From: a virus
Virus record (IMG/VR): IMGVR_UViG_3300018080_000142
Location: 1-64,000 of that record
Reading direction: 5' to 3' (one strand)
Length of the DNA stretch: 64,000 nucleotides
Part shown: one piece after another, positions 1 to 58,761 of the stretch
Layout of the letters: each line of letters starts with the position of its first letter
Numbering within the stretch: the stretch's first letter is position 1
Notes under the pieces: generated by a model
The model's database searches: none
What the model was told of the DNA's origin: nothing
What the model saw: the letters and a program-made list of their open reading frames with translations, nothing else
Made by a program: the position numbers and the translations under genes

Positions 1-2100
1 CGTGAACATATCGCTTATGGCGTTCTCTGCAATTTGTTACAGATCAGTAACGATATATACCAGTATCCAGGTTTTGTGCGCAGGGATGTTGGTGATACTG
101 CAAAATATGAAGGTGCTTACGCTTTTTACTGCCCTGAAGATATCTACGAGCTGAGGGATTTTTCCATTCAACCAGGTGATAAGCTTGTCAACCATGAGTA
201 TCGTACACCATTTGACCCGACTGTAACGGCACAAACTGGTTGCCAGGGATATGGTCGTGAGGAAATGACCGGTGCTGACGGAGCATACTCATTCTACCAA
301 AAGTTCTATCTACATAATGGTAGCGGGGATCCGGATGATAACGGTGTAATTGATGTAGAGCATGAAATATTATTCTATACACGGCATGAACAAGGTGATA
401 CCGATGAAACGACAAGCCTTCAGTTTGATCCAAGGGATCCGACAAAGGAATTACAAGGCCAATGTGCTGCTATAATCCTTCCGGATCCCGATCGTATCAG
501 CTATAATACCAACCTTGGTATTGCAGTTCTTGACATCGATGAATCAACGGATGGAAATAAAGGATATACAAACCTGCTCGAGAGTGATCCCAGGATGTTG
601 ATTTGTTCTGTCAAAAGGGAGAATAACAGTCCATACGGAGGAACTGGCGATTCAGCACTTGCAAATACGAATTATATCGGGACCGGCCATTTCCAGAAAA
701 TCGATGATGCTGTTCTTGCCGATATCAATGCCGGTGGTAATTATATATTCAATGACATCGATGTATTCGGAGGTGATGCATTTGTTTGCCTGTTTGACCT
801 GATGCGTCTTATGCAGGACGATGACCAGGAGGGATCCTACGATATGTTCAACCATTCAATCATCGTTCCCCTCGAGACAAGAATAAATCTTGATCTCAGA
901 GAGGGAAATCATGTTGGTAAAGACAGAAGTTATGACGGCACGAACAATCCCAGTGGTTTAAGAAAATTCACTACCGGGCATAAATGGGAGGAATTCAATT
1001 ATAATGACGGCTACACATCTGAAAACATTCAGGATTACTACCTACCATTACCGTATAACTTCCAGCTTCAAAACAGATTCGATGTTCGTAACAGATATTC
1101 AGATACAAAGACCTATGGAGAACTCGAGGATTCCTTCCGTAAGTTCTCAGCTCTGAACTATATCGATCTTGATACTCATTTCGGTCCTATCAATAATATA
1201 CGCAGGAAATTCAACCGCTTGTTGTACTGGCAAAGGGATGCCGTTGGATATATTCCAATTGAAGAACGAGCCCTTACACAGAATGCTGCAGGCGAACCTG
1301 TTCAGTTAGGTGTGGGAGGTATTTTCGAAAGGCATGATGAAGTGATTGAAATGATCGGTAACAGCAATCAATTTGGCCTTGCTGAATCACCTGTTGGTTT
1401 CCATTGGTATGATTCCATAAGAAAGATTTACGTTACCCTGACAGACTCTATGAAGTTCAGCCGGGATTCACTCGTCAAGGGTCTGGATAGGTATTTTACC
1501 AACGGTGTTCCAAACGATATGAACATCTATGATAATCCTGCCTACGATTACGGTATTGTATCCGGTTACGATCCCAGGATTAAATTCATATTCACAACTT
1601 TCTTTTTCCCTGATGGATCGAATGAAACGATCGGAATGAACATCAGGAATAATAAGTTCGTTGGATTCTATGATTTCAGTCCTAGAATGTATTTCGAGTA
1701 CAAAGACTGGATGTACGCCCTTGATGGTACAAGCCTGAATATATGGCAGCATAACACAAACGAGATCAGATCCAGTTTCTATGGCACGACATACCCTGCT
1801 ACATTCTCGGTCATAGTCAAGGAAAGCAGTAACGTTGAGAAGATCTTTGACAGATGGGTAATGATAGCAAGTGAGAATTTCTTCTCAGAACTTGACTATG
1901 AAAACTCCGAGCAAAGCGTAAGTGAGTTCATTCTCAATAACAGGAATATTAAAAGGAGAAACAGGAGATGGTATGGTAATTTTCCACTCGTAACCAGGGA
2001 AAGACTTGTCGATGGATATCTTAAGATTACCTTTACAACAAATTCCGTCAGCGAGGTTACATTCAATGAGATAAAAACTTTCATAAGAAAAATGATATAA
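1..2100 (+). CDS. muzzle / tail-nozzle-type virion protein (5' partial)
   Basis: The reading frame is open from base 1, so the gene starts outside the window; the TTG at 34 is only the first possible internal start. At least 700 residues are present. The last third has a pattern I associate with crAss-like muzzle and podovirus tail-nozzle beta-propeller proteins: a KFVGFYDFSP stretch, then a YALDG strand, then NIWQHN and SSFYG. The protein is rich in Asp, Asn and aromatic residues with no membrane segment, as expected of a virion protein. It ends 2 bases before the next ATG and begins the late operon. The role is inferred from these motifs and from gene order (muzzle, cargo, cargo, RNA polymerase). 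Confidence 0.6.
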   Translation, partial: REHIAYGVLCNLLQISNDIYQYPGFVRRDVGDTAKYEGAYAFYCPEDIYELRDFSIQPGDKLVNHEYRTPFDPTVTAQTGCQGYGREEMTGADGAYSFYQKFYLHNGSGDPDDNGVIDVEHEILFYTRHEQGDTDETTSLQFDPRDPTKELQGQCAAIILPDPDRISYNTNLGIAVLDIDESTDGNKGYTNLLESDPRMLICSVKRENNSPYGGTGDSALANTNYIGTGHFQKIDDAVLADINAGGNYIFNDIDVFGGDAFVCLFDLMRLMQDDDQEGSYDMFNHSIIVPLETRINLDLREGNHVGKDRSYDGTNNPSGLRKFTTGHKWEEFNYNDGYTSENIQDYYLPLPYNFQLQNRFDVRNRYSDTKTYGELEDSFRKFSALNYIDLDTHFGPINNIRRKFNRLLYWQRDAVGYIPIEERALTQNAAGEPVQLGVGGIFERHDEVIEMIGNSNQFGLAESPVGFHWYDSIRKIYVTLTDSMKFSRDSLVKGLDRYFTNGVPNDMNIYDNPAYDYGIVSGYDPRIKFIFTTFFFPDGSNETIGMNIRNNKFVGFYDFSPRMYFEYKDWMYALDGTSLNIWQHNTNEIRSSFYGTTYPATFSVIVKESSNVEKIFDRWVMIASENFFSELDYENSEQSVSEFILNNRNIKRRNRRWYGNFPLVTRERLVDGYLKITFTTNSVSEVTFNEIKTFIRKMI

Positions 2101-5822: not shown

Positions 5823-8800
5823 ATGCCAGATACTACTCGAGTATATGATCCCAGGACCGGCAAGATCACTGAACCAGGTGAAGAAAAATTCACCGGTGAT
5901 ACAGCTGCAGGTTCACCGATCGACCTGAGACCGGATGCACCAAGAGCCTACGATCCGGTAAATAACCAGATAGGTATACAGATCGATGGTGAATTCCAGC
6001 CTATATCCAGGGAACAGCATTTCTATGAAAAAGGGGTAATTCCAAAAGTTGAAAAGCAAATTGAGCAGTACGAAGAAGAACTGAGAGATTTCCGTGAAAA
6101 GATCGAGGGAACGAAATATATCACCGAGGATGAAAAAAGAAACCGGATCCTCGAGATAGATATGGAAATTACCAAGCTTCAGCAAGATCAACGCAGAGCA
6201 GCTCGTCAACAACAACCGTTCGATACTTTTGCCTTACCGGGACCTGGTACAGCCGGTGTGTCGATCCAGATGGATCCCGAGAAGCAAGGCGAGATGAAAC
6301 GGATAAATGAAGAAATCATCAGGCTTGCCAAAGAACGCAGGAACTTGGCAGAGGATCTGAAACCTGTCAGCGAGGAAGAAAAACGGGATATCAGAAACAA
6401 CTACGGTGCATTTGACGGTTTCGGTGAAATAAAAATGCATGAGAAATATGGTGTTGAAAGGTCTATGAGGATCTACCGGGAAGCTGTTTCCGATCAGCTC
6501 GATGTTCTCGCAAAGGCAAGAATTAAAGTCAACAAACCAGAAAATATCATCTCCTATGACAATATCCTGTTTGGCAAGGAACCTGAATTAAAACACACCG
6601 ACCAGGCTGGTCTCGATAAAATATGGGAGGCAGCAACTACGGATCCTGACTATGCTGACGGTGACTACGCTGCAAAACGTAAGATCCTGCATCAAAAGGT
6701 CAAAGAATTCCTGTCTGACAAAGAGGGCATAGAGGACAAGGAATCTGCATCATACAATATACTCTCGAATCTGTTGACAAAGTTCGCTCAGTCTGATGAT
6801 GGTAACTTCACCATTGAGGGACTGAAACTGTATGCCGAGCATATGTCTAACCGGGTTAATTCCATGATGGAATATTTACAGGGCAGTTTAAGCCAGGTTA
6901 AAGACGAGGATCCCCACGAGGAAAAAAGGAAGTTTGACCAGCTTGAGAGGCAATATGGCAAAGATGCTGTTAGGCAGTGGTACAATACGTTGATGTCAGA
7001 TGCCTTCCAGCTCAGGCTTGTACAGGATCAGCTTGATAAGATTCTCAAGATGCCTGAAGCTCGCAGGGGATTGAAAGATGCTGGTAAAGGATTCCTTGCC
7101 ACCCCCGCCCATGAACTCATGTTGGGAGTTTATCAACTGGCCGAGGCAATGAATGTTAATAAGATTGTTGATAAAGTCAATGACGGCAGGGAACTTACTT
7201 TCAGTGAGGATCTTGCATTGAAAGCTTATGCAACGATAAACTATGCTGGTAACTATGATACTGAAAGCACGGTATACAAGGCTACGAAAGGTATGGTTGA
7301 GATGCTTCCGTACATTGCCGAGTTTCTTATCTCCGGTCCTACATACAGTGCCATTCGTGGTGCTGCATTGAAAGGAACGACAAAGCTTGCCAGAGGTGTT
7401 ATCGGCCGGCAGGCCACTTTCCGGCTCGGAAAGAAAATATATAATGTTGCTGACCTGGCAGCATTGAATCTTGCCAGAGTCGCCGGTACAGCCGTTAGAC
7501 CAATTGCCATACCTCAAATGCCGGTGACCAAATCCTTGCAGAATATCCGTGATGATGTTGTTCTGAACCCAACGATGGAAGGTATTGAGGCTGAGGTGCT
7601 GAAAAATACCGGGGATCCACTGGCAGAAGGTATAGGAAAAGGTTACTGGTCTGCTTTCTCAGAACTGTTTACGGAAAAAATGGGAAGGCACATAATGAGA
7701 GTTATCCCGTTTGCCGGCAAGATCGGGAAACAGCTTAGCGGAAAGCAAATGGTCCAAAGGACCGTCCTGGATAGATTTATGAAGCTGAAAGGGATACAAA
7801 GTATTGAAAAGCTTGGCAGTTATATCAGCCGGAACAAGCTTGGTTGGGATGGCATCATGGAAGAATATCTCGAGGAAGTTGCCAACTACTATATGGAAAC
7901 TGCCGTAACCGGTGAAAGAGTCCACGGGAAAGAATTCTGGGATCAACAGCTTGTTACCTTTCTTACAGTAGCCGGTTTCGGTGCATTCATGAAACCTGTT
8001 CAGCTTACCCTTCATGGTGCGGTCGGCCACAAGATGAAATATACAATGGAAACACCGGAGGGTGAGATCAAGACAGTCAACCTTCCAAGACAGGTTCACC
8101 AGGATCTGATGAAGATAGTTGGTAAACCCGGTGCTTTCATTGATGACGAGGCCATAACCGGTTTCTTTGATAAATACAAAGGTGAACTCTCGAGAGAACA
8201 GTTCGATCTTCTGATGCATTTGACGGTCCAGGAAGGGCAGAAAAAGGCTCAGGAATTTGTAGCTACTCATGGTCCTGGCAGGGCAGCCAAGAGAATTGAT
8301 GAGGACGAGCTGAAGCCGGAACAGGAAATTACAGAACCCGCTCCGGAACTTTCAAAGGAGGAAGTGAGTGAGATTGAAGAAGAGAACAGGAAGATTATTG
8401 CCGAGCATCCTGACCTGGCAAGACTCGATTTACTTACGGAGGATCCTGCCACCGGTCAGCTGTTAAGTCCTAGCGAAACAGTTATTGAGCAGACACATCA
8501 GCAGATTGCCGATGAACTTGCAGAAAAAGCTGAATATGATCAGTTCGGTAATGTCACCAACCTTACTCCGGAGATTGAGAGACTTGTAGAACAGGAAGAA
8601 ACTCTGTCCAGATACAAGGATGAAATGCATGACCGGTCTGTTGATTTCGAGGATCTTTCAATATCTGATAAGCAGGAACGACTGTCCATTGAACTGCGTG
8701 AAGGAAAAACGCTGAAAGGTAAAACAACTCCTGTTACAGACCGCAGGTTTCAAGTTGAGCTTAAAGATGGCAGGAAGGTTGATGTATGGTTTCACAGGAA

Positions 8801-11800
8801 CCTGGCTCCTGATGTTGAGAAAAAAGCAAGGAAGGCAATCAACAACCATGAAAAGGTTGAACTCAGGCTTCAGGATTGGCAGGAATGGAATCCCGACAGG
8901 AATATCACCGATGAAAGCGGAGTACCATACGAGGACAGGATTCAGGCATGGATAGGTGAGAATCCCGTTGGTGCTGTCCGTGTTACCGACTTCCGCGAGA
9001 AACGCGCCCGTGCTGAAAGGGCAAGAGAGGACAGAGAGAGAGCCGTTGGTAAGCTGGCCGAGAGTACCAAGGAATTCTTTGAAGGGTTTGCCGTAAAGAA
9101 AGCTTACTCGGACGAGGAACGCAGGGACCAGGCGAAGAAGTTCATCCAGATGGTTAAGGATGCAGGTGTTCTTGCCGGCGTTGAAGTTCAGATAGCAGTC
9201 CAGAGACTTATCGAATATATCCGCGAGCTTACCAATATCGATGATGAGCAGAAAGGATATCTGATTGCACTTGTCAACCAGAACAAAAAAGAAATTGAAA
9301 GGATTGCCGCGCAACAGAGAATTAAGGAAAAAGGCTATGCAAGGAAGGCAGAGGAACTTTCCATTGATAACCTGGTCATTCCATCCATAGAAGGCGTTGC
9401 ACCTTCCGGGGCCCAGAAAATAGATGCCTTCCTTAACGGTTACGCACCAGTATGGAAAGGACTGTCTGAAAGCCTTGAAGTATCGAAGGAATCTGTAGAA
9501 AAAGCTTTTTACCAGATAGCCAGGAGAACCGATGCTTTGGGTAGCCTTCAAAATGAAGCCGTTTTTAGCTATTTTCTCGAGGGCTTGTATGCCGAGGACA
9601 GAATTAACGATGCAATAGTAGATCTCTTAAGACGCAGCTCCATATCGTCTGTACTAAGCTTATTTAACTTTTATGGTAACGTTAGGCTGACGAAACAGTA
9701 TGGAATGCTGTTTAACGGATCAACGTTCTCCATGAAGCTGCTTAACCCTTCTGAGAAGTACGATGACTTTGTCAACAGCTTTACCAATGCCGTAAAAAGG
9801 TATGAACACAAAGGATACACTGGTTACGAGGCGTTGCGTCACAGGATCTATGCACACAATGAACAGCGAGAGGAATTGTTCCATTCCAAGAATCAGGATT
9901 ACTCATGGTACTGGGATCAATCTGCCGAGCAGAGAGAAGAACTGAGAAGAACTCAGCATGAAAGGGATATCGAACTGCTTGGAGAGTTTACCGGCATTCC
10001 AACCGACACCTGGCGGGAGTACTTCACCAGTCAGACAAAGGAAACAATGGCAAAGCCTACCAAGGATGCTCCCAGGAATGCCGAATACACCACTTACGAC
10101 AACTTGCTTGCCCATGATACCTACCGGGGAAACTATCCCAGGATCCAGAGCAACATAGCTTTTAATCTTGGATTCGGTGTAATATACAACCGTGAGGAAA
10201 AGAGGCCGAGAACTCTGGAAGAATTCAAGGAAGCATTCGAGGTTTACTTTCTGCGTGGGAATGAAACCACCGGGGCATTGTCAAACCTATATAAGCTGAG
10301 TACGGCCATACAGGAGCGTGATGAAATCGGACTGTCTGGGATCGATGTAAAGGGAGACCGGTTCAGCTCATTTGTACAAAGAAGCCATCTTTTCAATGCA
10401 GCGGAGAACATTCGCAGGCTTAATGTGGATAACCGGATAACCAGGTTCTATCGTGATAAGGATAAGGAAATGGAAGTTGTCCTGGTCAACGGTCTGCACA
10501 ATACAAAGGTAAACAGGGGTAAAAAGGGAACTCATACGGTTAATCTCTCGAGCGAGGATTTGTGGCTGACCCAGATGGATTTCTTCCTACAGGAAGGTGA
10601 CACATACCTGCACTGGTTAGGTCAGTTCGGTGATAAACCGGCCGTATACTTTGCCGAAGTTCCAAAAGAGACTGAGATTACCAGCGAAAAGATATCTGCA
10701 CTCAAGAAAAAATTCCCGGATTTTGACAAGGCTGTTAAATGGGTTCACGATGAATATATCCAGCTGAATCAATCCTTTTTTAATTCCTTCCTTCTCTCCC
10801 CTACGAAAGATATTGATGCCCGCAAGAGAGAGCGTATGGATATTGCAAGGAACTTCGTCTACAACTTTGCGGTGAACATGGAGTCTTCCAATAAGATATT
10901 CCACGGCAGTCAGGAATCTTACAATGATCTCACGGATATAGTTAAACGTGGAGGCTCTACCAATTCACCAGGTTATGTATTGAATCCATACATAGAAGGC
11001 GGAGTAGGAGAAACCTTCCAGTTTGCATTGATTGAGGATCCAACATTTCTTGGACTCGAGGCATTTGACGGAGAGGAATTCATGTCAGCTGACTATGCTG
11101 AAAGAACTCAGGTATCGATGGGATCCACTCTCAGTAAAGTTGACCAGGAGGGCAATGAAATCCTTACTACAACGAAATCTCTGTTCAGCACAATAAATTA
11201 CGATACCGGTTACCGAGGACTTACAAAGACAAACCGGTTGAATATTGAAATACTTGCCAGTGCTTTCCCTGGTAGCAAGTTCGAGCATATCAGGGATTTT
11301 ATGAAAGCACACAGCATCGATGTACTTGCCGGAACTTCAGGAACCAAGAAAAGTGAGATGAATCCTGACAGGAAAGCAGTATCTATCAAGCTCTGGGATG
11401 AAGAAGGAAACTTGCTGAAGAAACCTGTCATACCTGAAAATTCAATTATTGCCAGAAATACAAGTGATGTTTTTGTGCAGCAGGATCTAAGGCATTCTAC
11501 TGAAGGCAGTCCGACAAATATGCCTTCACAGATCCCGGCGAATATGCAGGCAATCGAAAATGGTGTAGAGATCTCCCGGAAGATATTCCGCCTGCAGGTA
11601 AAAGTCATGGCTGAAATGGTCCGTGAGTTTGACGGTAAGAAGATCGATGATGTAAAGATTAAATGGCTTAAAGACCTGGTCAATGAAAATACTCAACCGG
11701 ATCTGTATCGTCTGCTCGAGGCGGGAATGACTCCTTATGAACCATCCTTTGCAAACTTCATGCGCAAGATGCTTTCTTCGGAACTCACCAGGAAGGCACT

Positions 11801-14800
11801 TGGAATACCGATAAACAGGATAACCACTATTGAGATCCTGGATCCTGGTACGACCGGTGATGAAGGTCTGTTGAAAGGCAGAACTCGTTATACGCATAAT
11901 AATGAAGAACATATCCTCTTACCGGAAATTGCATCGAATGTTGATGGTGGAAGGTATGAGAATACCAAGTTTGAGGGCCGGCCGGAAGAAGCTGTTAAGT
12001 ATGTTAGAAGGAATAAAGGAAAACATCTTGACCTCTTTACGCTTGGCGGTGAACTTATGGAATGGGAGATCTACGGCAGGGATGGTGTTATACCTGGTGA
12101 GCTGATGATATCAAACAGAGTGCCGGGAACAAACCTGCATTCGCATACTGTTGGCAGGCTGAAAGTAGGTTTTCCAGCCGGAAACTTTACAATGCTTGAC
12201 AAGGAGAGCCAGAGGAACAGCGGTTCTGACGCTGATGGTGACCAGCGGTTTAATCAGGTTTTCTATAAGGATAAGAACGGCAATATCGTTGAGGACGAAC
12301 CGGATCAGGAAACAAGGGAAGGTCTTGCCAATGATATAATGAGATTGATGGCCGAAGATTACATGAATCCGGCCTTCGATACCAGGGTAAAAAGTCCGAT
12401 CAATACAGAAGCTTATGATCCCATTCTCGATGTTATCTCAGAAAAAGAAAAGCGTGTAGAGTATACCATGCTTGATCCTCGGGGTTATGACCGGGCAAGG
12501 AATGAAAATATGGTTGGTGTCAAGATGAAGGGAATCATGACTGATGCCGTGACCACGTACAGCCTGATAGCAAACAGGAATATTCCCTTCAAGTCAACGC
12601 AACAGATAGGTAATGTGAAGCTGACCGGTTTTGTCAAGGATCCTCTCGGTTATATGAAGGAACATCTTGCAAACTTTGTCAACCTCGCCTTTGACAATGC
12701 TGCTGATCCAAAGATTGAAAGGCTCGGTTTGAATGAGCATACAGCGAATATGTTCGTCATTGCATTGCTTGGAAACCGGGGGCTGGATACAAGGAATCAG
12801 GATGAGATACTGAAATACATTGAAAAGATCGCAAAGTATTTCACTTCACCGATCATGCGTGACTTTACAGAACGGATGAGAAGGGATTCCGGTGGCATGA
12901 GAGCTGTCGATCTTAAGGACGTGGCGAAGAATCTGAAGAATAAATACAAGCCTGAATCTGTTGACCAGATGATTTCGTTCTATAAGAGGGCAAGGGAGTT
13001 TCCGGATCTGAGGAGGTTCTATAGTCTCACACAAAATGCACCTGGCAGTGTGGTTGAATACGTTCTTGATCAGTCATTGTATGACAAGGTCAGAAACAAT
13101 GGGTTTAGATTCATCGATGTTAAGAGACTTTTCGGTAAAAACGATCTTCCGATAGTCCAGTTTGCATCATCCGCAGGATCTCTAAGAGTATCCAAAGATT
13201 ATATCTTCGAAGATACTTTCGATCAGTCGATTGTCGGCCAGGAGCTATACCGGTATATCAGTACGCTTCTTCGCAAGAAACCTGGTGGGTTTACAATGGA
13301 TCAGCTTATCTCTGTATCCAGGGGAATCAACAATATGGCTGCCATACGTGCCATAGGTGTCAAACAAAACATGAGATCTCTCGAGAGTGAGCTTCTGTCA
13401 AATCTTGATAGCTACCGGGAGAAATATCCCGATAATCTGTTCCTTGAGACAGTTCAGAAAGTCAGGCGTAAAGGAAATGATTACCTCGAGATACTTCCTG
13501 ACTACCGGAAAAGCAAGATCGGTGATGTGAAGCTTGCAAATACTCGGAATGATTTCGACCGGCTGAGTGATGATCTTAAGGATAAGTTCGCTGCTTATGC
13601 CTTGTATCGTTGGGGAGCAACTACAAGTACTTTCGGTGGATCCTACTACAATCTGTTCGGTGACGGATATCGTATAGACCTGTCATTGAGAATGCAGGAA
13701 GAACTTCTGTCATGGCAGTTGAATGAGCTTTCTTCCGTTGAGAAACTACAGATCGGTGAATGGATACTCAGAGCATCCAGGGATCCAAACCTGCGTAAAG
13801 TATCTGCGGTTAATCCTGCCTATGAAAATTACTACGACTATAATTCCCTTTCAACAATAGACTTTCCCATCTCTTACGAGGCAATGGACGGACTTCACGG
13901 TGTCTCGAGTATGGAGGATCTCAGCGAATATTCGGAAACACATCAGTTTGATGCCGAGGCATTGCTGGATTACATAGAGAAACAAACCGGTTCAAGGAAG
14001 GTAGTAAGGTTTGCCAAAGGAAAAGTGCAAGAATTCAGGGACAGAGCAATGAAGTTCTTCCCGCCGAACACTACTGCTCCGGAACCGTTAAGAGATATGA
14101 TGCCGTCAAGTGGTATTGGTGAGGCGTTAGCAAGTGAGGATCCGGAACTTCAGGATTTTATTTTTACCCGCCTGCGTAAAATGTATCCTGGGGTCCGGAT
14201 CTTTGCCAGCAGAGATTCTTTCATGGAATTTGTCGAGAAACATGGTGGTCGCGGTTTCAATGTCAATCCGGAGGCCATAGGTAACGCTTTCAAGAATGCC
14301 ATCCGGATCGATCCTGAGAAGGCTGAACAATCAACAATGTTCCATGAATATGCACACATTTACTGGGATGCCCTTCCAGATGACAATAATGTAAAGACCG
14401 ACCTGAGAAATATGTATTATGATCTCTATGCCGACAAGATATTTACATTGGAGGATCTTGATGAAATGATCATAATTGATATCGGTAAGGCTGGTGTAGA
14501 GCGTGGCAGGCTTAAGTTCGAAGGTTTACGACTGGAAAGATTCATGGATCTGTTAAGACAGTTCTGGATCGAGGTTAAGAAGCTGCTTGGATTTGCCAGC
14601 AGACAAGACCTGGTTGATGATCTTACGAATGATATCTGGGAGAACTCCGGCAGGATCAGAACTGAAACTGCATTTGGCGAGGCTGTTGTTCATAATATGA
14701 TATCGTACAACTTCAGTAGTGAAAATATGCCGGGTTTCAATGGTGCTGAACATACTCATTACATCGGTGACAAGCCGGTAACGAGTGTTACCTCTGTGAT

Positions 14801-17800
14801 CGGTACTGAGTTAAAGTCAGATATCTTTAATCCGTCTGCAGTTGCGATGAAAAGCGCTCAGAACTTTGAAAGGATTTACAGCAACTATACCAAGGAAAGA
14901 CTTGGTGAAAAGGAACTCGAGGAGGAAGCTCAGGCTGATCTGGTCATATGGGATGAAAAGACTGAACGCGGAAATACTGCACACAAAGTAGCCGAAAGTG
15001 TGTTTGGCAATGCCATTATAACAAAGGATGACATAGCATGGTTTGAAGATCCGGCTGATTATCGCAAGCTCAGGAACAAACTACTCGAGATAAAAGACCA
15101 CATACTTGCAAGATTCCCGAAAGCAGAGTTCTATCCTGAACGTCATGTCATATCCAAGAAATTCAAGATAGGTGGTTTTGTTGACCTGGTCGTTGATATC
15201 GGAGATAACAAATTGCTGGTATATGATTTCAAGACTGTTGAGAGCCAGCTTGCAGATGATGAAGGTAAAGCATTGCCTGATTACAAGAAAGCTTACGGCC
15301 TGATGAAACCGCCGTTCCAGCATCTCAGCAACTCGAAGTACACGGAGCATATGCTTCAAACGAATATGTATTCTTCCATCCTCGAGGAACAAACGGATCC
15401 GGAAAAACCAGGTCAAGTAAATCAGGTAGTTGAAGTGCGTATCGTACCGATTATTCGTAAAATTGATCCGGAAACGGGAAAATTCACGGATGTTAAGCTT
15501 GGCAATGTTGTCAAGATCCCGAGAAATGATAAAACAATTCAGATCGCTGAAAGAGTGATGGGTCACAGTGTTCTACTACGTGAGGATTTTGACAGGATCT
15601 ATCCGGATTTCAAGGCCAACCTAGAGAAGCTGAAGGTAGCTCCTGTAATAATAAAGGATACGCTCACTGCATTCCATTTTGTAAAGCAGCTGTCACCTGA
15701 TGTAAGTAAGTTCAGCAGAGCTAACGTTTCCGATGCAAGGACTGCCGGCCTGCAGGCGATGAAAGGCATCCTCATTGACCGTGGGTTTGATATGTCAGAC
15801 TTCCGTGGTCCAAGAAAGATGAGTTTCGAAGAACTATTCTACATAGCATATGCTGAGAAACATATCACTAAGCAGATGTTGCTGGATCCTGACAGCGGTG
15901 TATCGCTTGATTCTTTGTTTCCGGAACAGGAAGTGTATAAGAAACTCACTCCAAAACCTAACCCGGCTGCTAAAAAGAGCAGTTGGCACAGAGTAAAACT
16001 CGGCGATAAGGATTATTTACTTCAGGACGTTGGCATAAACAATGCTTCTGTCGGTGATGATGTCATGCGTATATATGATTTCAAATGGAAATCCGGCCGG
16101 ATGGGAAGGAATCATTACAGGTATACTATCCTGAAAATCGATAAGAAAAAAAGAAGGTTCTTTATCCACAATGTAGATTCCGGTGAGGATCACTGGGTTT
16201 CCGTACCTGGAAAGACCGATGGATTCCTGAAGATCCATGCCGACTTGCCGGAAGGTGTCCAGGAACCGGGAGAAGATTCCTTTGTCTCGAGATACATCTA
16301 CGAGGCTGAATCAATCAGAGAAAAGCATTACAAGTCAGATTTCAAGATCGGTGAACCGGCCGAAACAGTCGAAGGTGAACAGGAGCGCAACCGCAAGGAA
16401 AGGCAGTTAAGAGAGATCTGGAAGTTCTTCAGGCAGTATGATGACATGGAAAAGGTTGAGGAATTCCTTAACGATGAAAAAGCAGTGGAGGACTTTTATG
16501 AGATAATGGCATCTGTAGATGCAGAGTTCGGTACACACCTGCAACTATTCATACGTGATGAAGGCGTAAATAATATGCTTGCCAGTGCTGTCAGGAGGGA
16601 ACTGCAGGGATTTGAGGATGTCCCTGATCAATTACTTCCTATGACTACGAACCTGTATTACATGCTCACAATGAACCAGAAGGAAGTCTGGAAGAACTTT
16701 GATAGGCTTAACACTTTCAGGCTTACCATGCCGGCTAGGATGATAGAAATGCGATTTGTACCACTGAGTATGTTTACCACACAGACTGCCGTATCGATCA
16801 AGAAATATAATCAGGAGGCATTTGATCTTACCAGGTCATTCCGAAGATTCGCCAGAGGGAAAGTAAATGTCGAGCTACTTATTGTTGAGGATGGTGAAAG
16901 GCTTTACTGGCGCAGGCCGACTTCTGCAATGAAGGAGGATCACCCACTTGAGTTTGAATTTCTCAAGGAGCTTTACAGATATTACGAATACTTCGATCCT
17001 GAGATGAAAAGATACAAAGATACCGAGCAGGGTTTAACAAAAAGGATCCCGGTGACACAAATCTTTGCATCCAGGAGTGAAATGATCGACAGGTATGGTG
17101 GCAAATGGGGTCCTGTTCTGTACCAAAGATTACAACCAAAGGCTTATGATCATGTTAAGGTGAAACTTATACATGAGATCAATAAGGAAACCGGTGAGGT
17201 CAAGTATCTTGAGGATAGTGATGGTAAACCAGTTTATAGGACATTGAAGCAGATCAAGGAAGGATTCATATTTGACAGGAGTGATCCTGTTGAGCTGGCG
17301 AAGATACTTGGTCCGAGATGGAAAAATATAATGCGTATACCCGGTACTGTACCTGTAGCTGGTAAAGCCGGGCTACTTAATCATTATATTAAGCAGGCAA
17401 TCCAGATATATCGCAAGGGTGGTGACCAGAATAACCTATCAGCCAATATTAATCAATCCAAGCGAAGAATTCCGATGGCCGGAAAAGGATCCACTGTATA
17501 TGCTACTGAACATTACGTAGAGGCCGAAGAAAAATCCATCAACAGCATGATGAAACGGTTCTACCTGAAAAGGATGATGGCTCCCCTGGATTGGATGCTC
17601 GATATGTATGGATCCTATTCGTCAGAATCCAAAGACGAGGATAACTTGATCATGAAATATCTGCGCGTCTGGGGTGAGTACCAGCTGTACGGAAAGAAGC
17701 CGACTGCTGCATTTGAATGGCTTGGAAGTCAAACAATGTCAGATCTAGTAGACGTTGGTAACAGAGCTAATAGCTGGAATAAGATTCTCTTTTCATTGAA

Positions 17801-19424
17801 AACACAGTTTATTAACCTTGCCATTGGTCAGGGAATGGACATAATTCGGGAACCTGGTGCATACATAAGAGGACTTGAGAGAATGTTCGGTTCGGGTGGT
17901 CCGATTAAGAATATTACAAAGGCATGGAGGATTCTGCGTAGATACAAGCTTGCAAACATTGTTAGTGATGTTACATTCGACCAGATTGATAAGGAATTCA
18001 GACTTATGGGTATAGATCTGTCAAAAATTGAGAAAGTTGGTTTTTGGCCTATGGAAGCAGCTGAAAAGCTTAACCAATTTCCAATATTTATAGGTTTGAT
18101 GACCGATGCAGAGTGGAATGCTTATGACAGTACAGGTAAAGTAGTTGACAAGAAAAATGCAATGTCATTCTGGCGAGCCTTAATGCTTGAGGGCAGGGTC
18201 CAGGATATTCATGGTGATTACGGTACAGAAAATGCAGCACCTTTATGGCTAGGTAATACAGGTAAAGCATTACTTCAGTTCAGGAAATGGTTACCAGCAA
18301 TGATCTGGGCTCATCTTGCCCCGTATCATATCGACAGGAATATGGCAGTACGCAGTGGGATCCTGCCAACAGTACATTTGATGGCTAAAGTGATCTCGTA
18401 CAATGTAAGGACCACACAGGAAAAGCAGGAGCAACGTGCCAAGAAAATAGAAGAAATGGCTGAGCGCGGTGAGTTTGCGAATGAAGCATTCTTCAGGAAT
18501 GTAAGCGAATATATGGATACCCTTGTACATGCCGTAAATGGTAAGAAAATACAATGGAAGGATCTCTCTGAAAGTGACAAGAGGAATATCCGTTCATTTG
18601 CAATAGAGGTAATGTTATATGCTGCTATGACATTTACGTACCTTGCAATAATGGGACCTGGTGATGAAAAGACATTCAGGGATTACAGAAAAAGAATATT
18701 TGCTCCATTGTTCAAACGATATCAAGGTGATGTTTTCTGGATCTTTACACCTGATAACTGGCAATATTTCAGCGAACAGATGGTCCCAATGATCAGCATT
18801 ATAGCAGGATCAGTGAAATTTATGTCTGATGCTACCTGGTATATCTATTCGCTTATCGATCCTACAAAAGCTCCCAATGCACTGTATAATAAAGATACAT
18901 TAGTTGCAAGAAAGGGATTCCCAAAGTTTATCGTATCGGGATCATATATAGCGCCCGGTGGTAGTTTGATGAGACATGCAGCAGTAATGATTCGCAGAAA
19001 AAGATTGAAACGCACTCCGGTTGACCTTGAACAGTTCGGTCTGACTTCGGAAGATTTAATTGATTTCGGTGTTCAGGAAGGTGAACTTAATGAATTCAAC
19101 CTGATCGAAATGTCATACAAATATGAAAGGATAATGCGTGACTTACGGCAGGCTGCCAAGTACAATGCATTAAAGAATAAAAATATCGATCCTGATTGGT
19201 TCATGGATCTCGAGACCGGTGAAGATCTGTTACGGTCGGAGGCTGACCAGCTGAAAGACTTGCTAAGAATGATCCAGATTGAACAGCAGGCACTGGATGG
19301 AGAGATCGATCTTGAACAGGTTCAAAAGGATGCTGCAGAGTACCGGAAACTGGAAAAAGCTCGTCAGGCACGTCCAAAGAGAAAAACAAAGCGTAAATTT
19401 AGAGAGGCAATACAACAAAAATAA
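5823..19424 (+). CDS. giant virion polyprotein: DxDGD RNA polymerase, zincin, PD-(D/E)XK nuclease
   Basis: 4533 residues in one uninterrupted frame. Residues 1-450 are helical and coiled-coil rich. Residues about 1740-2150 look like a two-barrel RNA polymerase core: FDGEEF at 1748-1753, TSGTKK at 1838-1843 (lysines expected in the first barrel), NRVPGTNLHSHT from 2098, and the metal-binding DADGD at 2136-2140, the signature of YonO/crAss-type single-subunit polymerases. A zincin motif HEYAH lies at 2841-2845. A RecB/Cas4-like PD-(D/E)XK domain has G3050-H3054, D3121 and D3135-x-K3137. The far C-terminus has a hydrophobic segment (about 4260-4280) and a basic tail. In crAss-like phages such polymerases are packaged and injected to transcribe early genes. 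The zincin could process the polyprotein or act in the host envelope; that is inference. Confidence 0.88.
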   Translation: MPDTTRVYDPRTGKITEPGEEKFTGDTAAGSPIDLRPDAPRAYDPVNNQIGIQIDGEFQPISREQHFYEKGVIPKVEKQIEQYEEELRDFREKIEGTKYITEDEKRNRILEIDMEITKLQQDQRRAARQQQPFDTFALPGPGTAGVSIQMDPEKQGEMKRINEEIIRLAKERRNLAEDLKPVSEEEKRDIRNNYGAFDGFGEIKMHEKYGVERSMRIYREAVSDQLDVLAKARIKVNKPENIISYDNILFGKEPELKHTDQAGLDKIWEAATTDPDYADGDYAAKRKILHQKVKEFLSDKEGIEDKESASYNILSNLLTKFAQSDDGNFTIEGLKLYAEHMSNRVNSMMEYLQGSLSQVKDEDPHEEKRKFDQLERQYGKDAVRQWYNTLMSDAFQLRLVQDQLDKILKMPEARRGLKDAGKGFLATPAHELMLGVYQLAEAMNVNKIVDKVNDGRELTFSEDLALKAYATINYAGNYDTESTVYKATKGMVEMLPYIAEFLISGPTYSAIRGAALKGTTKLARGVIGRQATFRLGKKIYNVADLAALNLARVAGTAVRPIAIPQMPVTKSLQNIRDDVVLNPTMEGIEAEVLKNTGDPLAEGIGKGYWSAFSELFTEKMGRHIMRVIPFAGKIGKQLSGKQMVQRTVLDRFMKLKGIQSIEKLGSYISRNKLGWDGIMEEYLEEVANYYMETAVTGERVHGKEFWDQQLVTFLTVAGFGAFMKPVQLTLHGAVGHKMKYTMETPEGEIKTVNLPRQVHQDLMKIVGKPGAFIDDEAITGFFDKYKGELSREQFDLLMHLTVQEGQKKAQEFVATHGPGRAAKRIDEDELKPEQEITEPAPELSKEEVSEIEEENRKIIAEHPDLARLDLLTEDPATGQLLSPSETVIEQTHQQIADELAEKAEYDQFGNVTNLTPEIERLVEQEETLSRYKDEMHDRSVDFEDLSISDKQERLSIELREGKTLKGKTTPVTDRRFQVELKDGRKVDVWFHRNLAPDVEKKARKAINNHEKVELRLQDWQEWNPDRNITDESGVPYEDRIQAWIGENPVGAVRVTDFREKRARAERAREDRERAVGKLAESTKEFFEGFAVKKAYSDEERRDQAKKFIQMVKDAGVLAGVEVQIAVQRLIEYIRELTNIDDEQKGYLIALVNQNKKEIERIAAQQRIKEKGYARKAEELSIDNLVIPSIEGVAPSGAQKIDAFLNGYAPVWKGLSESLEVSKESVEKAFYQIARRTDALGSLQNEAVFSYFLEGLYAEDRINDAIVDLLRRSSISSVLSLFNFYGNVRLTKQYGMLFNGSTFSMKLLNPSEKYDDFVNSFTNAVKRYEHKGYTGYEALRHRIYAHNEQREELFHSKNQDYSWYWDQSAEQREELRRTQHERDIELLGEFTGIPTDTWREYFTSQTKETMAKPTKDAPRNAEYTTYDNLLAHDTYRGNYPRIQSNIAFNLGFGVIYNREEKRPRTLEEFKEAFEVYFLRGNETTGALSNLYKLSTAIQERDEIGLSGIDVKGDRFSSFVQRSHLFNAAENIRRLNVDNRITRFYRDKDKEMEVVLVNGLHNTKVNRGKKGTHTVNLSSEDLWLTQMDFFLQEGDTYLHWLGQFGDKPAVYFAEVPKETEITSEKISALKKKFPDFDKAVKWVHDEYIQLNQSFFNSFLLSPTKDIDARKRERMDIARNFVYNFAVNMESSNKIFHGSQESYNDLTDIVKRGGSTNSPGYVLNPYIEGGVGETFQFALIEDPTFLGLEAFDGEEFMSADYAERTQVSMGSTLSKVDQEGNEILTTTKSLFSTINYDTGYRGLTKTNRLNIEILASAFPGSKFEHIRDFMKAHSIDVLAGTSGTKKSEMNPDRKAVSIKLWDEEGNLLKKPVIPENSIIARNTSDVFVQQDLRHSTEGSPTNMPSQIPANMQAIENGVEISRKIFRLQVKVMAEMVREFDGKKIDDVKIKWLKDLVNENTQPDLYRLLEAGMTPYEPSFANFMRKMLSSELTRKALGIPINRITTIEILDPGTTGDEGLLKGRTRYTHNNEEHILLPEIASNVDGGRYENTKFEGRPEEAVKYVRRNKGKHLDLFTLGGELMEWEIYGRDGVIPGELMISNRVPGTNLHSHTVGRLKVGFPAGNFTMLDKESQRNSGSDADGDQRFNQVFYKDKNGNIVEDEPDQETREGLANDIMRLMAEDYMNPAFDTRVKSPINTEAYDPILDVISEKEKRVEYTMLDPRGYDRARNENMVGVKMKGIMTDAVTTYSLIANRNIPFKSTQQIGNVKLTGFVKDPLGYMKEHLANFVNLAFDNAADPKIERLGLNEHTANMFVIALLGNRGLDTRNQDEILKYIEKIAKYFTSPIMRDFTERMRRDSGGMRAVDLKDVAKNLKNKYKPESVDQMISFYKRAREFPDLRRFYSLTQNAPGSVVEYVLDQSLYDKVRNNGFRFIDVKRLFGKNDLPIVQFASSAGSLRVSKDYIFEDTFDQSIVGQELYRYISTLLRKKPGGFTMDQLISVSRGINNMAAIRAIGVKQNMRSLESELLSNLDSYREKYPDNLFLETVQKVRRKGNDYLEILPDYRKSKIGDVKLANTRNDFDRLSDDLKDKFAAYALYRWGATTSTFGGSYYNLFGDGYRIDLSLRMQEELLSWQLNELSSVEKLQIGEWILRASRDPNLRKVSAVNPAYENYYDYNSLSTIDFPISYEAMDGLHGVSSMEDLSEYSETHQFDAEALLDYIEKQTGSRKVVRFAKGKVQEFRDRAMKFFPPNTTAPEPLRDMMPSSGIGEALASEDPELQDFIFTRLRKMYPGVRIFASRDSFMEFVEKHGGRGFNVNPEAIGNAFKNAIRIDPEKAEQSTMFHEYAHIYWDALPDDNNVKTDLRNMYYDLYADKIFTLEDLDEMIIIDIGKAGVERGRLKFEGLRLERFMDLLRQFWIEVKKLLGFASRQDLVDDLTNDIWENSGRIRTETAFGEAVVHNMISYNFSSENMPGFNGAEHTHYIGDKPVTSVTSVIGTELKSDIFNPSAVAMKSAQNFERIYSNYTKERLGEKELEEEAQADLVIWDEKTERGNTAHKVAESVFGNAIITKDDIAWFEDPADYRKLRNKLLEIKDHILARFPKAEFYPERHVISKKFKIGGFVDLVVDIGDNKLLVYDFKTVESQLADDEGKALPDYKKAYGLMKPPFQHLSNSKYTEHMLQTNMYSSILEEQTDPEKPGQVNQVVEVRIVPIIRKIDPETGKFTDVKLGNVVKIPRNDKTIQIAERVMGHSVLLREDFDRIYPDFKANLEKLKVAPVIIKDTLTAFHFVKQLSPDVSKFSRANVSDARTAGLQAMKGILIDRGFDMSDFRGPRKMSFEELFYIAYAEKHITKQMLLDPDSGVSLDSLFPEQEVYKKLTPKPNPAAKKSSWHRVKLGDKDYLLQDVGINNASVGDDVMRIYDFKWKSGRMGRNHYRYTILKIDKKKRRFFIHNVDSGEDHWVSVPGKTDGFLKIHADLPEGVQEPGEDSFVSRYIYEAESIREKHYKSDFKIGEPAETVEGEQERNRKERQLREIWKFFRQYDDMEKVEEFLNDEKAVEDFYEIMASVDAEFGTHLQLFIRDEGVNNMLASAVRRELQGFEDVPDQLLPMTTNLYYMLTMNQKEVWKNFDRLNTFRLTMPARMIEMRFVPLSMFTTQTAVSIKKYNQEAFDLTRSFRRFARGKVNVELLIVEDGERLYWRRPTSAMKEDHPLEFEFLKELYRYYEYFDPEMKRYKDTEQGLTKRIPVTQIFASRSEMIDRYGGKWGPVLYQRLQPKAYDHVKVKLIHEINKETGEVKYLEDSDGKPVYRTLKQIKEGFIFDRSDPVELAKILGPRWKNIMRIPGTVPVAGKAGLLNHYIKQAIQIYRKGGDQNNLSANINQSKRRIPMAGKGSTVYATEHYVEAEEKSINSMMKRFYLKRMMAPLDWMLDMYGSYSSESKDEDNLIMKYLRVWGEYQLYGKKPTAAFEWLGSQTMSDLVDVGNRANSWNKILFSLKTQFINLAIGQGMDIIREPGAYIRGLERMFGSGGPIKNITKAWRILRRYKLANIVSDVTFDQIDKEFRLMGIDLSKIEKVGFWPMEAAEKLNQFPIFIGLMTDAEWNAYDSTGKVVDKKNAMSFWRALMLEGRVQDIHGDYGTENAAPLWLGNTGKALLQFRKWLPAMIWAHLAPYHIDRNMAVRSGILPTVHLMAKVISYNVRTTQEKQEQRAKKIEEMAERGEFANEAFFRNVSEYMDTLVHAVNGKKIQWKDLSESDKRNIRSFAIEVMLYAAMTFTYLAIMGPGDEKTFRDYRKRIFAPLFKRYQGDVFWIFTPDNWQYFSEQMVPMISIIAGSVKFMSDATWYIYSLIDPTKAPNALYNKDTLVARKGFPKFIVSGSYIAPGGSLMRHAAVMIRRKRLKRTPVDLEQFGLTSEDLIDFGVQEGELNEFNLIEMSYKYERIMRDLRQAAKYNALKNKNIDPDWFMDLETGEDLLRSEADQLKDLLRMIQIEQQALDGEIDLEQVQKDAAEYRKLEKARQARPKRKTKRKFREAIQQK

Positions 19425-20297: not shown

Positions 20298-20704
20298 TGG
20301 GAAGCAAAGAATTCGGTCCTGAGCAGGATTACCCGCCAATATCCCCACCATCGGGGAAACCGTTTCTATTAAGATCGGACGGGCAACCTGCGACTTTCCT
20401 GGACCTGCTGGATACAATAAATTCCTACTCCGGCCACGCAGGAAAATTCCTGATGGTAAAGCTTACAGAGGATGGTGTAACCGTTTCAGCCGTATCGGTA
20501 GAGACCGACAAAAATTATGTCCATAACCAACCAACGCCTTCCGATGACTGGGGAACGATAAATCATGCAATGGGAAAATACCCTACTATAAACATATTTG
20601 ATGACTCTGGAAACGAGGCACACGCTGACATATCTCACGTAGACATTAACAATGTTACCATAACTTCGACAATAGCATTTGCAGGAACAGCATATTTTAA
20701 CTGA
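20297..20704 (+). CDS. small tail-fiber-type protein
   Basis: 135 residues. I chose the ATG at 20297, which overlaps the upstream stop, over an in-frame start at 20264. The C-terminal half matches a beta-rich module common at the ends of phage fibers and baseplate appendages: WGTINHAMGKYPTINIFD, then DINNVTITST and GTAYFN. The N-terminus has PPSGKPFLLRSDG. Its TGA overlaps the ATG of the large fiber gene (ATGA), so both fiber components are made together. Probably part of the host-adhesion device. Confidence 0.6.
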   Translation: MGSKEFGPEQDYPPISPPSGKPFLLRSDGQPATFLDLLDTINSYSGHAGKFLMVKLTEDGVTVSAVSVETDKNYVHNQPTPSDDWGTINHAMGKYPTINIFDDSGNEAHADISHVDINNVTITSTIAFAGTAYFN

Positions 20705-36542: not shown

Positions 36543-37130
36543 TCAGAAATTTGTAGGTAATTTTTCGCTTACCTGTTCGGCAGGTACTTCTTCGTATTCA
36601 GCATCGTCAGCCCTCATCTTATTAAACTCACTTTTTAGCATAAAGCGCGTATGAGCCTCACATTTATTGCACCAATTATCATCAGAATCGCCTGTTTCGT
36701 AAAGTTCGATAACATTGTTGCTATTAGGATCCACCCATGCCTTAGTTTGGATGTTAATGCCTCCGCATTGCTCACAAACCAAAAGAGTATCATCTATGTT
36801 TGTGATATAATTTTCCAGGGCAAGTTTCATTTCAAAGATATGCCCGCGAAACTTCCTGTCTACATCTATGTAACCTTGGGTTACCTTGTCTGCATGAAGA
36901 ACGGTTGCATGATCTTTCATGCCGAAGGTCTCGCCGATCTTGGATGTACTGCAGTTCGTCATTAACCTTGCAAAGTACATACATATCTGTCTTGCTTGTA
37001 CAACTTCACGCCTTCTGGTTTTTATCATGATCATCCCTTCGGATACGCCAGTGAATTTACTCACTGTCTTAAGAATTCTGTCCAGAAATTCCGGACCTTG
37101 TAAGTCATTTCTCAAAATTACTTGTGCCAT
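36543..37130 (-). CDS. DnaA domain IV-like protein with C-terminal zinc motif
   Basis: 195 residues. Residues about 15-105 match the DNA-binding domain IV of DnaA: VVQARQICMYFARLMTNCSTSKIGETFG, then the signature GMKDHATVLHA (70-80; cellular DnaA has GGRDHTTV). There is no AAA+ domain. A second part has C119-x2-C122 and C154-x2-C157, a likely zinc knuckle. It could bind DnaA boxes in the phage or host and act as initiator, competitor or regulator. Promoter motif copy 2 lies 26 bases upstream. Confidence 0.8.
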   Translation of the reverse strand: MAQVILRNDLQGPEFLDRILKTVSKFTGVSEGMIMIKTRRREVVQARQICMYFARLMTNCSTSKIGETFGMKDHATVLHADKVTQGYIDVDRKFRGHIFEMKLALENYITNIDDTLLVCEQCGGINIQTKAWVDPNSNNVIELYETGDSDDNWCNKCEAHTRFMLKSEFNKMRADDAEYEEVPAEQVSEKLPTNF

Positions 37131-57064: not shown

Positions 57065-57985
57065 ATGAGAATTAAGCAGTTTAAGCTCCTGTCAAGGGGT
57101 GAAGAAGGTATTCAGGTCCATGCAAAGGAATTCATTGCCGGAGAGAAATACCAGGTGATCGATGATGTGCAGAGAACGAGGAAACTCAGCGTTGATAAGC
57201 CATTGGTCGAAGAAGTTCAGAAGTTGAAATATTTCTTTCTTAATCTGACCGGACACTGGATCGAGCCTTACAGCAACCACTACGACTCCGTAGAGAAAAA
57301 AGTACTTTACGTAAAAGGCGAAGCAAAATCCAGCCACGTCATTCTGAAGGATCTCTGGAACAGAACATTCGTTACCGGTGCAACAGCCGGTGATAATGGA
57401 AGCTTTGTCATCACCGGAGAAATCGAAATCACACCGGAAAAAAAGATCGGTCTTGCCACTCCGCTTATCCATCAGGAAGATGATTTCGGTTTTCACGCGG
57501 ATTGTTTGAAAACTCTCAATGATATATCCGTAAAGATATCTGAGTACTTCGCATCGGGTACGGCACTGGTTGAAAGAAAAATCAAGGAGCTTCCGAGCAA
57601 ACCTGGTATGACTGAAGAAGAAGTTGCTGATGAAGAACTCAGCAGGATGGTGCGAAATAATATTATCGCTCCTATGGAGGGAATCTCTGCCGATGAAGGT
57701 GACGAACAATCAGATACCGGGCAACCAGCACTGAATGAAAGCACCAAGAACATTGATGGTAAGCATCTCAAGGAAGCAGGTATTGAGGAACCGGATTTCG
57801 AGCCGAAGAAACCGGATCCATACGGTCCGCCTGCAGCGACCATACCGGCAGATACCACCGGGGAAGTTCCTACACCGGCAGAACAGAAAGCAACTGATCC
57901 AGGAGATCTGAGCAGTATGGAACATTCCGAAAGCATGGGAATATCGGAACAGGATGAAAAGGAAGGTGACGAGGAAGAATGGTAA
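57065..57985 (+). CDS. acidic-tailed DNA-related protein upstream of nuclease
   Basis: 306 residues. Residues 1-190 are folded, with VRTRK-type strands and a FLNLTGHWIEPY segment. The last 110 residues are Pro/Glu/Asp-rich and end GDEEEW. The arrangement (fold plus acidic tail with a terminal aromatic) resembles SSB-type proteins, and the next gene is a nuclease, overlapping by 7 bases. A ssDNA-binding role is only a suggestion. Confidence 0.45.
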   Translation: MRIKQFKLLSRGEEGIQVHAKEFIAGEKYQVIDDVQRTRKLSVDKPLVEEVQKLKYFFLNLTGHWIEPYSNHYDSVEKKVLYVKGEAKSSHVILKDLWNRTFVTGATAGDNGSFVITGEIEITPEKKIGLATPLIHQEDDFGFHADCLKTLNDISVKISEYFASGTALVERKIKELPSKPGMTEEEVADEELSRMVRNNIIAPMEGISADEGDEQSDTGQPALNESTKNIDGKHLKEAGIEEPDFEPKKPDPYGPPAATIPADTTGEVPTPAEQKATDPGDLSSMEHSESMGISEQDEKEGDEEEW

Positions 57986-58761
57986 GCATCCTGTTTAACA
58001 AAGACCGTAGGGTAGAATTCTCAAAGGATACACACACCTACACCATTGCGGGAAATCCTCTGCAGAGCGTAACCAGGTTACTCAGCTCGGTAATGATTCC
58101 GTTTGAAAGCCAGAAGATTTCCTATGCAATGGCAAAAGGTGATCCGGGCAGGCAGAAAGAGATCCTGGAACAGTGGGAAGAAAAGCGTGTCAGCGCTGAG
58201 AACAGGGGCAACTGGATCCACGACAACATTGAATCGTTCGTTAAGTTCGGCAATTATGATGAGAAGCTGCAATCTGTGGTTAGCCAGATGAAACCAGTTC
58301 TCAAAGAAGGCTACCGGTTCTATTCCGAAGCAATGGTATACTCAACGGAGCATATGGTTGCCGGGCAGACAGACCTGGTCGTACAGAGGCAGAAATCGCT
58401 TAATTCGGTATTCGATTTCTATGATCTCAAGACTAACGAAGCGAAAGGGATCCAGTTCGACAGTATCTACCGGAAGAAGGATCCGCACCGGCACTACAAT
58501 AAGTTCCTGCTTCCACCGCTTGACCACCTGGAAGATTGCAACTACAATATATATTCCCTGCAGCTCAGTATGTATGCACATCTGGCTCAGGAAACCTGGG
58601 GGATCAAGATAGGAAAGCTTGCAATACTTTTCATTGATAACGACCTGCAGCTGCATCAGTATCCCGTACCATACATGAAAATGGAGGTAAAGAAACTTCT
58701 CGACAGCAGGAAAAATCTCAAGAGCATTCCAGCAACCACTGATGATGATGATTGGGTATGA
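57979..58761 (+). CDS. PD-(D/E)XK (RecB/Cas4-like) nuclease
   Basis: 260 residues. RGNWIHDNIE (G77, H81), E117 in YSEAMVY, VAGQTDLVV (D132) and FDFYDLKTN (D149-x-K151) form a complete G-H-E-D-DxK set of the RecB/Cas4-like family. The N-terminus has THTYTIAGNPLQSVTRLLSS, similar to the sequence before the nuclease domain of the giant virion protein. Probable roles: DNA processing before packaging, or recombination. Its stop overlaps the next ATG (ATGA). Confidence 0.8.
   Translation: MVSILFNKDRRVEFSKDTHTYTIAGNPLQSVTRLLSSVMIPFESQKISYAMAKGDPGRQKEILEQWEEKRVSAENRGNWIHDNIESFVKFGNYDEKLQSVVSQMKPVLKEGYRFYSEAMVYSTEHMVAGQTDLVVQRQKSLNSVFDFYDLKTNEAKGIQFDSIYRKKDPHRHYNKFLLPPLDHLEDCNYNIYSLQLSMYAHLAQETWGIKIGKLAILFIDNDLQLHQYPVPYMKMEVKKLLDSRKNLKSIPATTDDDDWV

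Follow-up and report, generated by a model that had tools for sequence, protein, structure and literature searches.

A giant protein of a crAss-like phage in which a crAss-type RNA polymerase is followed by zincin-like and PD-(D/E)XK nuclease domains in a single chain

Virion proteins with a part in transcription are known from the crAss-like phages crAss001 and phi14:2. In crAss001, the muzzle gene is followed by the genes for gp45 (842 aa), gp46 (534 aa) and gp47, and then by those for gp49 and gp50 on the other strand; gp45, 46, 47, 49 and 50 were all detected in virions by mass spectrometry (PMC10172136). The homologous proteins of phi14:2 were likewise detected in virions by mass spectrometry, and phi14:2 g066 is a virion RNA polymerase whose structure has been solved and which has been tested biochemically. 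The polymerases of crAss-like phages have a known relation to QDE-1, a polymerase of the RNA-interference type. In addition, Yutin et al. (2021, PMC7886860) have already found PD-(D/E)XK (PDDEXK) domains in large crAss proteins linked to transcription, and an HExxH motif with a downstream Glu is a described zincin signature in polyvalent proteins (Iyer et al., 2017, PMC5512222).

The window examined here is a stretch of 64,000 nt (positions 1 to 64,000 of IMG/VR virus record IMGVR_UViG_3300018080_000142) from a 93,679 bp record of a crAss-like virus. Genes for the terminase, the portal and the major capsid protein were assigned to head-and-packaging families by their matches, and that for the terminase also matches crAss-like phages. 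The muzzle frame crosses the ends of the record without a stop, which indicates that the 93,679-base genome is probably complete, being either circular or circularly permuted. Downstream of the muzzle gene lie a 698 aa gene, a 535 aa gene and then a giant open reading frame, so that the giant stands where the block of virion RNA polymerase genes is found in such phages (Table 1). Sequence matches were found for neither of the two intervening genes, and their assignment as cargo protein equivalents follows position and, for the second, size. As this gene order is shared with crAss001 and phi14:2, whose cargo proteins were seen by mass spectrometry, the 4533 aa protein would be packed in the virion and ejected, in keeping with a sequence-only reading of this DNA that had called it a virion protein.

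Table 1. Coordinates of the giant ORF, its domains and the related genes in the window
Feature	Position (nt)	Strand	Basis or remarks
Muzzle protein, C-terminal part	34..2100	+	PF25731 crAss_MUZ 8.4e-58; whole frame is genome 91916-93679 plus 1-2100, 1287 aa
Cargo protein C1 equivalent, 698 aa	2103..4199	+	Position only: place of crAss001 gp45, between muzzle and gp46
Cargo protein C2 equivalent, 535 aa	4212..5819	+	Position and size only, as crAss001 gp46 (534 aa)
Giant ORF, 4533 aa	5823..19424	+	N-terminal region, LPD14, RNA polymerase, zincin-like domain, PD-(D/E)XK nuclease, C-terminal region; homologous ORFs in six other contigs
LPD14, domain of large polyvalent proteins, aa 611-739	7653..8039	+	PF18827 E=1.8e-10, 41.4 bits vs cutoff 27
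Putative crAss-type RNA polymerase core, aa about 1700-2460	10920..13202	+	Profile matches to crAss001 gp50, cr130_1 gp79, phi14:2 g066
K1842, lysine of first barrel region	11346..11348	+	Invariant in 7 homologues; aligns with K of crAss001 gp50, cr130_1 gp79, phi14:2 g066
DADGD (aa 2136-2140), predicted metal-binding loop DxDxD	12228..12242	+	Aligns with SGSDFDVD of crAss001 gp50, GSDFDID of cr130_1
Zincin-like domain, aa about 2770-2960	14130..14702	+	HEYAH 14343-14357; third ligand E2881 14463-14465; conserved in 7 homologues
PD-(D/E)XK nuclease, aa about 3046-3208	14958..15446	+	G3050/H3054/E3058, D3121, D3135-F-K3137, Q3179
C-terminal region, aa 3850-4533	17370..19421	+	Related to RNA-polymerase-associated virion protein crAss001 gp49
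Standalone PD-(D/E)XK exonuclease	57979..58761	+	Adjoins terminase; paralogue of fused nuclease; phrog_298 4.5e-24; BLASTP 3e-7 to fused domain

Other genes of this phage include one for a probable self-cleaving tail fibre of 1329 aa (20704-24693), in which a peptidase S74 chaperone domain forms the C-terminus, and one for a 195 aa protein (36543-37130, minus strand) with the DnaA C-terminal helix-turn-helix (PF08299, 4e-23), near which genes for a primase-helicase, a helicase and a uracil-DNA glycosylase are located. The scanned proteins of this phage did not include a DNA polymerase.

The giant frame is open over 4533 codons under table 11, without internal stops. The sequence-only reading had reported such an intact frame with motifs for a polymerase, a zincin and a nuclease, and these were found where it had placed them: KK at residues 1842-1843, DADGD at 2136-2140, HEYAH at 2841-2845 and the nuclease stretch at 3050-3137. 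Taken alone, bare motif patterns of this kind are weak evidence. Among shuffled versions of the 4533 aa protein, 9.6% contain DxDGD, 9.3% contain HExxH, and 100% contain the loose D..(D/E)xK pattern. The case therefore rests on relatives, conservation and profiles.

Single-sequence searches with the giant protein across viral contigs returned no match, phmmer searches against PDB sequences and against PHROGs returned none, and a scan of genome contigs for relatives of the giant gave none. Relatives were obtained only through the terminase gene, which led to an 80 kb relative (L021), and then through catalytic-site patterns and active-site alignments. The L021 homologue is open over at least 4611 aa and is 45% identical to the window protein (P0001). 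Three other homologues have 5796 (L026), 4729 (L037) and 4820 aa (L039), and two that are cut by contig ends have at least 4112 (L027) and at least 3318 aa (L038). The six relatives are 20-45% identical to the window protein, with which they form a comparison set of seven homologues. K1842, QQDLRH, HExxH and the downstream Glu E2881 are kept in all seven. For five of the six relatives, the patterns used in retrieval contained DxDGD or GNFTMLD, so that the conservation of DxDGD is partly by construction; the conservation of K1842, QQDLRH, HExxH, E2881 and the nuclease is free of that bias.

These relatives also bear on the idea that the fusion is an assembly artefact, or that chance motifs have accumulated in an unrelated giant protein. 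The presence of DxDGD and of HExxH, each in about 9% of shuffles, would fit the latter. Against both stand the giant frames in six other, independent contigs, among which those of 4729 and 4820 aa are complete and carry all three domains in the same order. Both ideas were rejected, and we regard them as hardly credible.

A profile built from the seven polymerase sequences matches crAss001 gp50 (3.8e-12) and cr130_1 gp79 (1.4e-11). When a profile of the catalytic region was run against six-frame translated genomes, the only match in phi14:2 was g066 (1.9e-4) and the only match in cr10_1 was the 4460 aa giant gp32 (2.6e-3). Alignments to the crAss polymerases carry K1842, the SGSDxDxD loop (SGSDADGD in the window) and the DNAkDPxI motif; the alignment to phi14:2 g066 carries K1842 and QQDL. 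Pairwise hhalign comparisons with a four-sequence profile were too weak to be decisive. An AlphaFold2 (AF2) model of the polymerase region has a mean pLDDT of 64, with the catalytic barrel poor, the catalytic loop near 30 and the barrels unresolved. The nine best PDB fold matches of this mediocre model are all QDE-1, the best at E=0.044 and none significant alone. Together, the profile matches and aligned residues support the view that the giant contains a predicted crAss-type RNA polymerase of the phi14:2 g066 kind. The sequence-only reading had assigned both lysines at 1842-1843 to the polymerase barrels; the first is the invariant residue, and the second is not conserved among the homologues. 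At residue 2137 (12231-12233), the DADGD of the window phage is unique to it, with DFDGD in all six relatives.

One relative, L026, carries an insertion within the polymerase, between the two barrel regions. At about aa 2458-2900 (locus nt 8501-9883) it comprises a polyvalent-protein ADP-ribosyltransferase (PF18760, 4.8e-8) together with a DprA-like domain, the latter similar to segments of cr113_1 and of the Klebsiella phage Pylas virion polymerase.

LPD14 is above cutoff in L021 and L027 as well as in the window protein. Polyvalent proteins were defined by Iyer et al. (2017) as combining unrelated enzymatic domains and an LPD in one phage protein, and the window protein does so with LPD14, the polymerase, HExxH and PDDEXK; L026 extends this domain set with its ART-PolyVal domain. 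Furthermore, a profile of the C-terminal region matches crAss001 gp49 at E=2.7e-5 in three colinear pieces.

In the putative zincin, E2881 lies 36 residues past HEYAH, in agreement with the signature given by Iyer et al. (2017, PMC5512222), and HExxH and E2881 are invariant in the seven homologues. Beyond these homologues, comparison of the region with crAss001 gp47 places HEAFH in register, in a weak match (E about 0.05). The region has no Pfam match, no zincin appears among the fold matches listed for it, and its AF2 pLDDT is low; for these reasons we call the domain zincin-like only. A peptidase, or what remains of one, is its probable identity.

For the nuclease, the evidence extends from sequence to fold. 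The isolated segment passes Pfam PDDEXK_1 (PF12705; 7.5e-5, 23.2 bits versus a cutoff of 22), it is related to the standalone exonuclease of the same phage (Table 1), and a nuclease profile matches crAss001 gp47 at 1.6e-8. A six-frame match to the crAss001 nuclease at 9.5e-51 was set aside because its alignment included the crAss001 sequence, 1.6e-8 being the unbiased value. The structure-model check that the sequence-only reading had suggested gave a confident AF2 model for this part, with pLDDT mostly 80-93, in which the nuclease fold was found: Foldseek retrieved human MGME1 (probability 1.00, E about 1e-3), with EXO5 and Cas4 also among the best matches. By profile, motifs and fold, the domain is a PD-(D/E)XK nuclease of the RecB/MGME1/Cas4-like type, with predicted activity. 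As a matter of family inference, the likeness to MGME1, EXO5 and Cas4 suggests action on DNA ends or single strands. With the polymerase and the zincin-like domain described above, this bears out the sequence-only proposal that three such elements share one chain.

Each of the five relatives that reach the nuclease region has the domain in the same position, although in L026 it is only recognisable. The motif set is complete in the window protein and in L021, and is largely kept in L037 and L039, where the acids and the lysine remain. In a nuclease tree, P0001, L021, L037 and L039 have their fused domains in one well-supported group; the support does not extend to the deeper order of fused versus standalone nucleases. 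In L027, Asn and Ala replace D3121 and D3135 and the domain itself is retained, so that this is probably a natural inactive variant; in L026 the motif-I histidine is lost. The loss of catalytic acids in L027 suggests that cutting is not essential everywhere.

Such decay of the site in L027, and partly in L026, in domains that are retained is what would be expected if the nuclease and zincin-like domains were mainly structural, holding DNA or ejection machinery near the polymerase, with catalysis dispensable or lost. The virion RNA polymerase (vRNAP) of phage N4 offers a parallel in that its HExxH-bearing C-terminal region inhibits the polymerase, with no protease activity reported (PMC12633501). 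However, P0001 and L021 retain the full set of catalytic residues, and L037, L039, crAss001 gp47 and cr4_1 gp27 retain the acids and the lysine, which suggests selection for catalysis. We consider a mainly structural role unlikely, while still giving it some weight.

The sequence-only reading had favoured one package in which transcription, nuclease attack on host or defence DNA and self-processing by the zincin are combined, in effect an injected weapon. The catalytic residues of both the nuclease and the zincin-like domain are intact in the window phage, zincin processing of polyvalent proteins and counter-defence roles have been proposed (Iyer et al., 2017, PMC5512222), and L026 has a polyvalent-protein ADP-ribosyltransferase inserted in its polymerase, all of which would suit a weapon. 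Yet the losses of D3121 and D3135 in L027 and of the motif-I histidine in L026 speak against it, and the nearest folds are exonucleases of the MGME1/EXO5/Cas4 type. In addition, N4 vRNAP, in which HExxH directly follows the polymerase, was purified without sign of degradation (PMC12633501). A weapon of this kind therefore appears improbable. The specific sequence of events in which, once inside the cell, the zincin would free an active polymerase to start early transcription and an active nuclease to destroy DNA of the host or its defences seems to us very doubtful.

The explanation that we favour, and hold to be likely on the profile matches, gene order and conservation, is that the giant is an injected crAss-type virion polymerase fused to a zincin-like module and to a nuclease module for processing or gripping DNA, all derived from adjacent cargo genes. 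Most likely, two or three adjacent crassvirus cargo proteins were fused into one chain, contributing an N-terminal region with LPD14, a two-barrel QDE-1-like polymerase and a downstream zincin-PDDEXK-C-terminal protein. Fusion of the polymerase gene to a downstream zincin-PDDEXK neighbour is the simplest reading; the reverse direction would require a split elsewhere instead of a fusion in the window lineage. Most likely, the chain would share the capsid with the two smaller cargo proteins, leave through the muzzle in a partly unfolded state and refold in the cytoplasm, where it would transcribe early phage genes without the host polymerase. The PD-(D/E)XK domain, being of the MGME1/RecB/Cas4 type, would most likely process DNA ends or single strands, or serve as a DNA-gripping module of the entering complex; a role as a general weapon is less likely. 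Candidate substrates of the zincin-like domain would be its own chain, co-ejected proteins and host proteins.

These observations describe a crAss-like injected transcription package in which a nuclease and an HExxH domain recur beside the polymerase, either fused to it or as neighbours. The recurrence spans several families as well as a divergent lineage that this analysis met only in metagenomic contigs. A testable question is thereby raised, namely what job a nuclease has in a transcription complex when that complex goes into the cell along with the phage genome, and the decayed nuclease in L027 and the enzyme insertion in L026 provide natural comparisons.

Comparison with known systems shows which parts of this arrangement are shared. 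In crAss001, PDDEXK and HExxH occur in gp47, the DxDxD polymerase is gp50 and the C-terminal module is gp49, and these modules are likewise placed after the muzzle, gp45 and gp46. They are encoded, however, by three separate genes on two strands, in contrast to the one chain of the window phage, and the nuclease of gp47 precedes HExxH whereas that of the window protein follows it. In phi14:2 (g065-g067), g066 is the sole match of the catalytic-site profile, K1842 and QQDL align, and HExxH is found in the adjoining gene g065; unlike in the window phage, these are separate genes. No nuclease was found when the phi14:2 genome was searched with the nuclease profile.

The Suoliviridae (cr10_1 gp32; cr55_1 gp070 and gp071; cr4_1 gp26 and gp27) have polymerase giants of about 4.5 thousand residues at the corresponding position. 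Two of them, cr4_1 and cr55_1, encode HExxH and then PDDEXK in the gene directly after the giant, the order seen in the window protein (cr4_1 gp27: HEILH at 342, PDDEXK at 481-719; cr55_1 gp71: HELVH at 517, then 769-901). The nuclease protein of these phages differs in being a separate ORF, and their giants have an extra HExxH ahead of the polymerase motif. The gene that follows the polymerase in the Azobacteroides phage has a PDDEXK_1 match at 1.6e-6. A search of twelve reference genomes gave no clear example of a single frame with both nuclease and polymerase, although cr124_1 may be one. Directly before the polymerase gene at the start of the cr124_1 record lies an unannotated frame of about 2589 aa (NC_055899 93765-101532, L060), with TAG read as an amino acid, that has a PDDEXK match and HEAFH. 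The linear record is probably cut inside one giant gene; the reading frames differ at the join.

Outside the crAss-like phages, N4 vRNAP (gp50, Schitoviridae) is alike in outline, being an injected giant with an N-region, polymerase, HExxH domain and large C-region; it belongs to another family, its polymerase is of the T7 type, and a PDDEXK domain is not described in the accessible part of the report (PMC12633501). The sequence-only reading had considered the joining of polymerase, nuclease and protease unusual, a judgement countered by crAss001 gp47, by the HExxH-PDDEXK proteins of the Suoliviridae and by the PDDEXK domains that Yutin et al. (2021, PMC7886860) described. Neither the ingredients nor the giant size is new, and the variant described here is the single-chain RNAP-zincin-PDDEXK order in a divergent clade.
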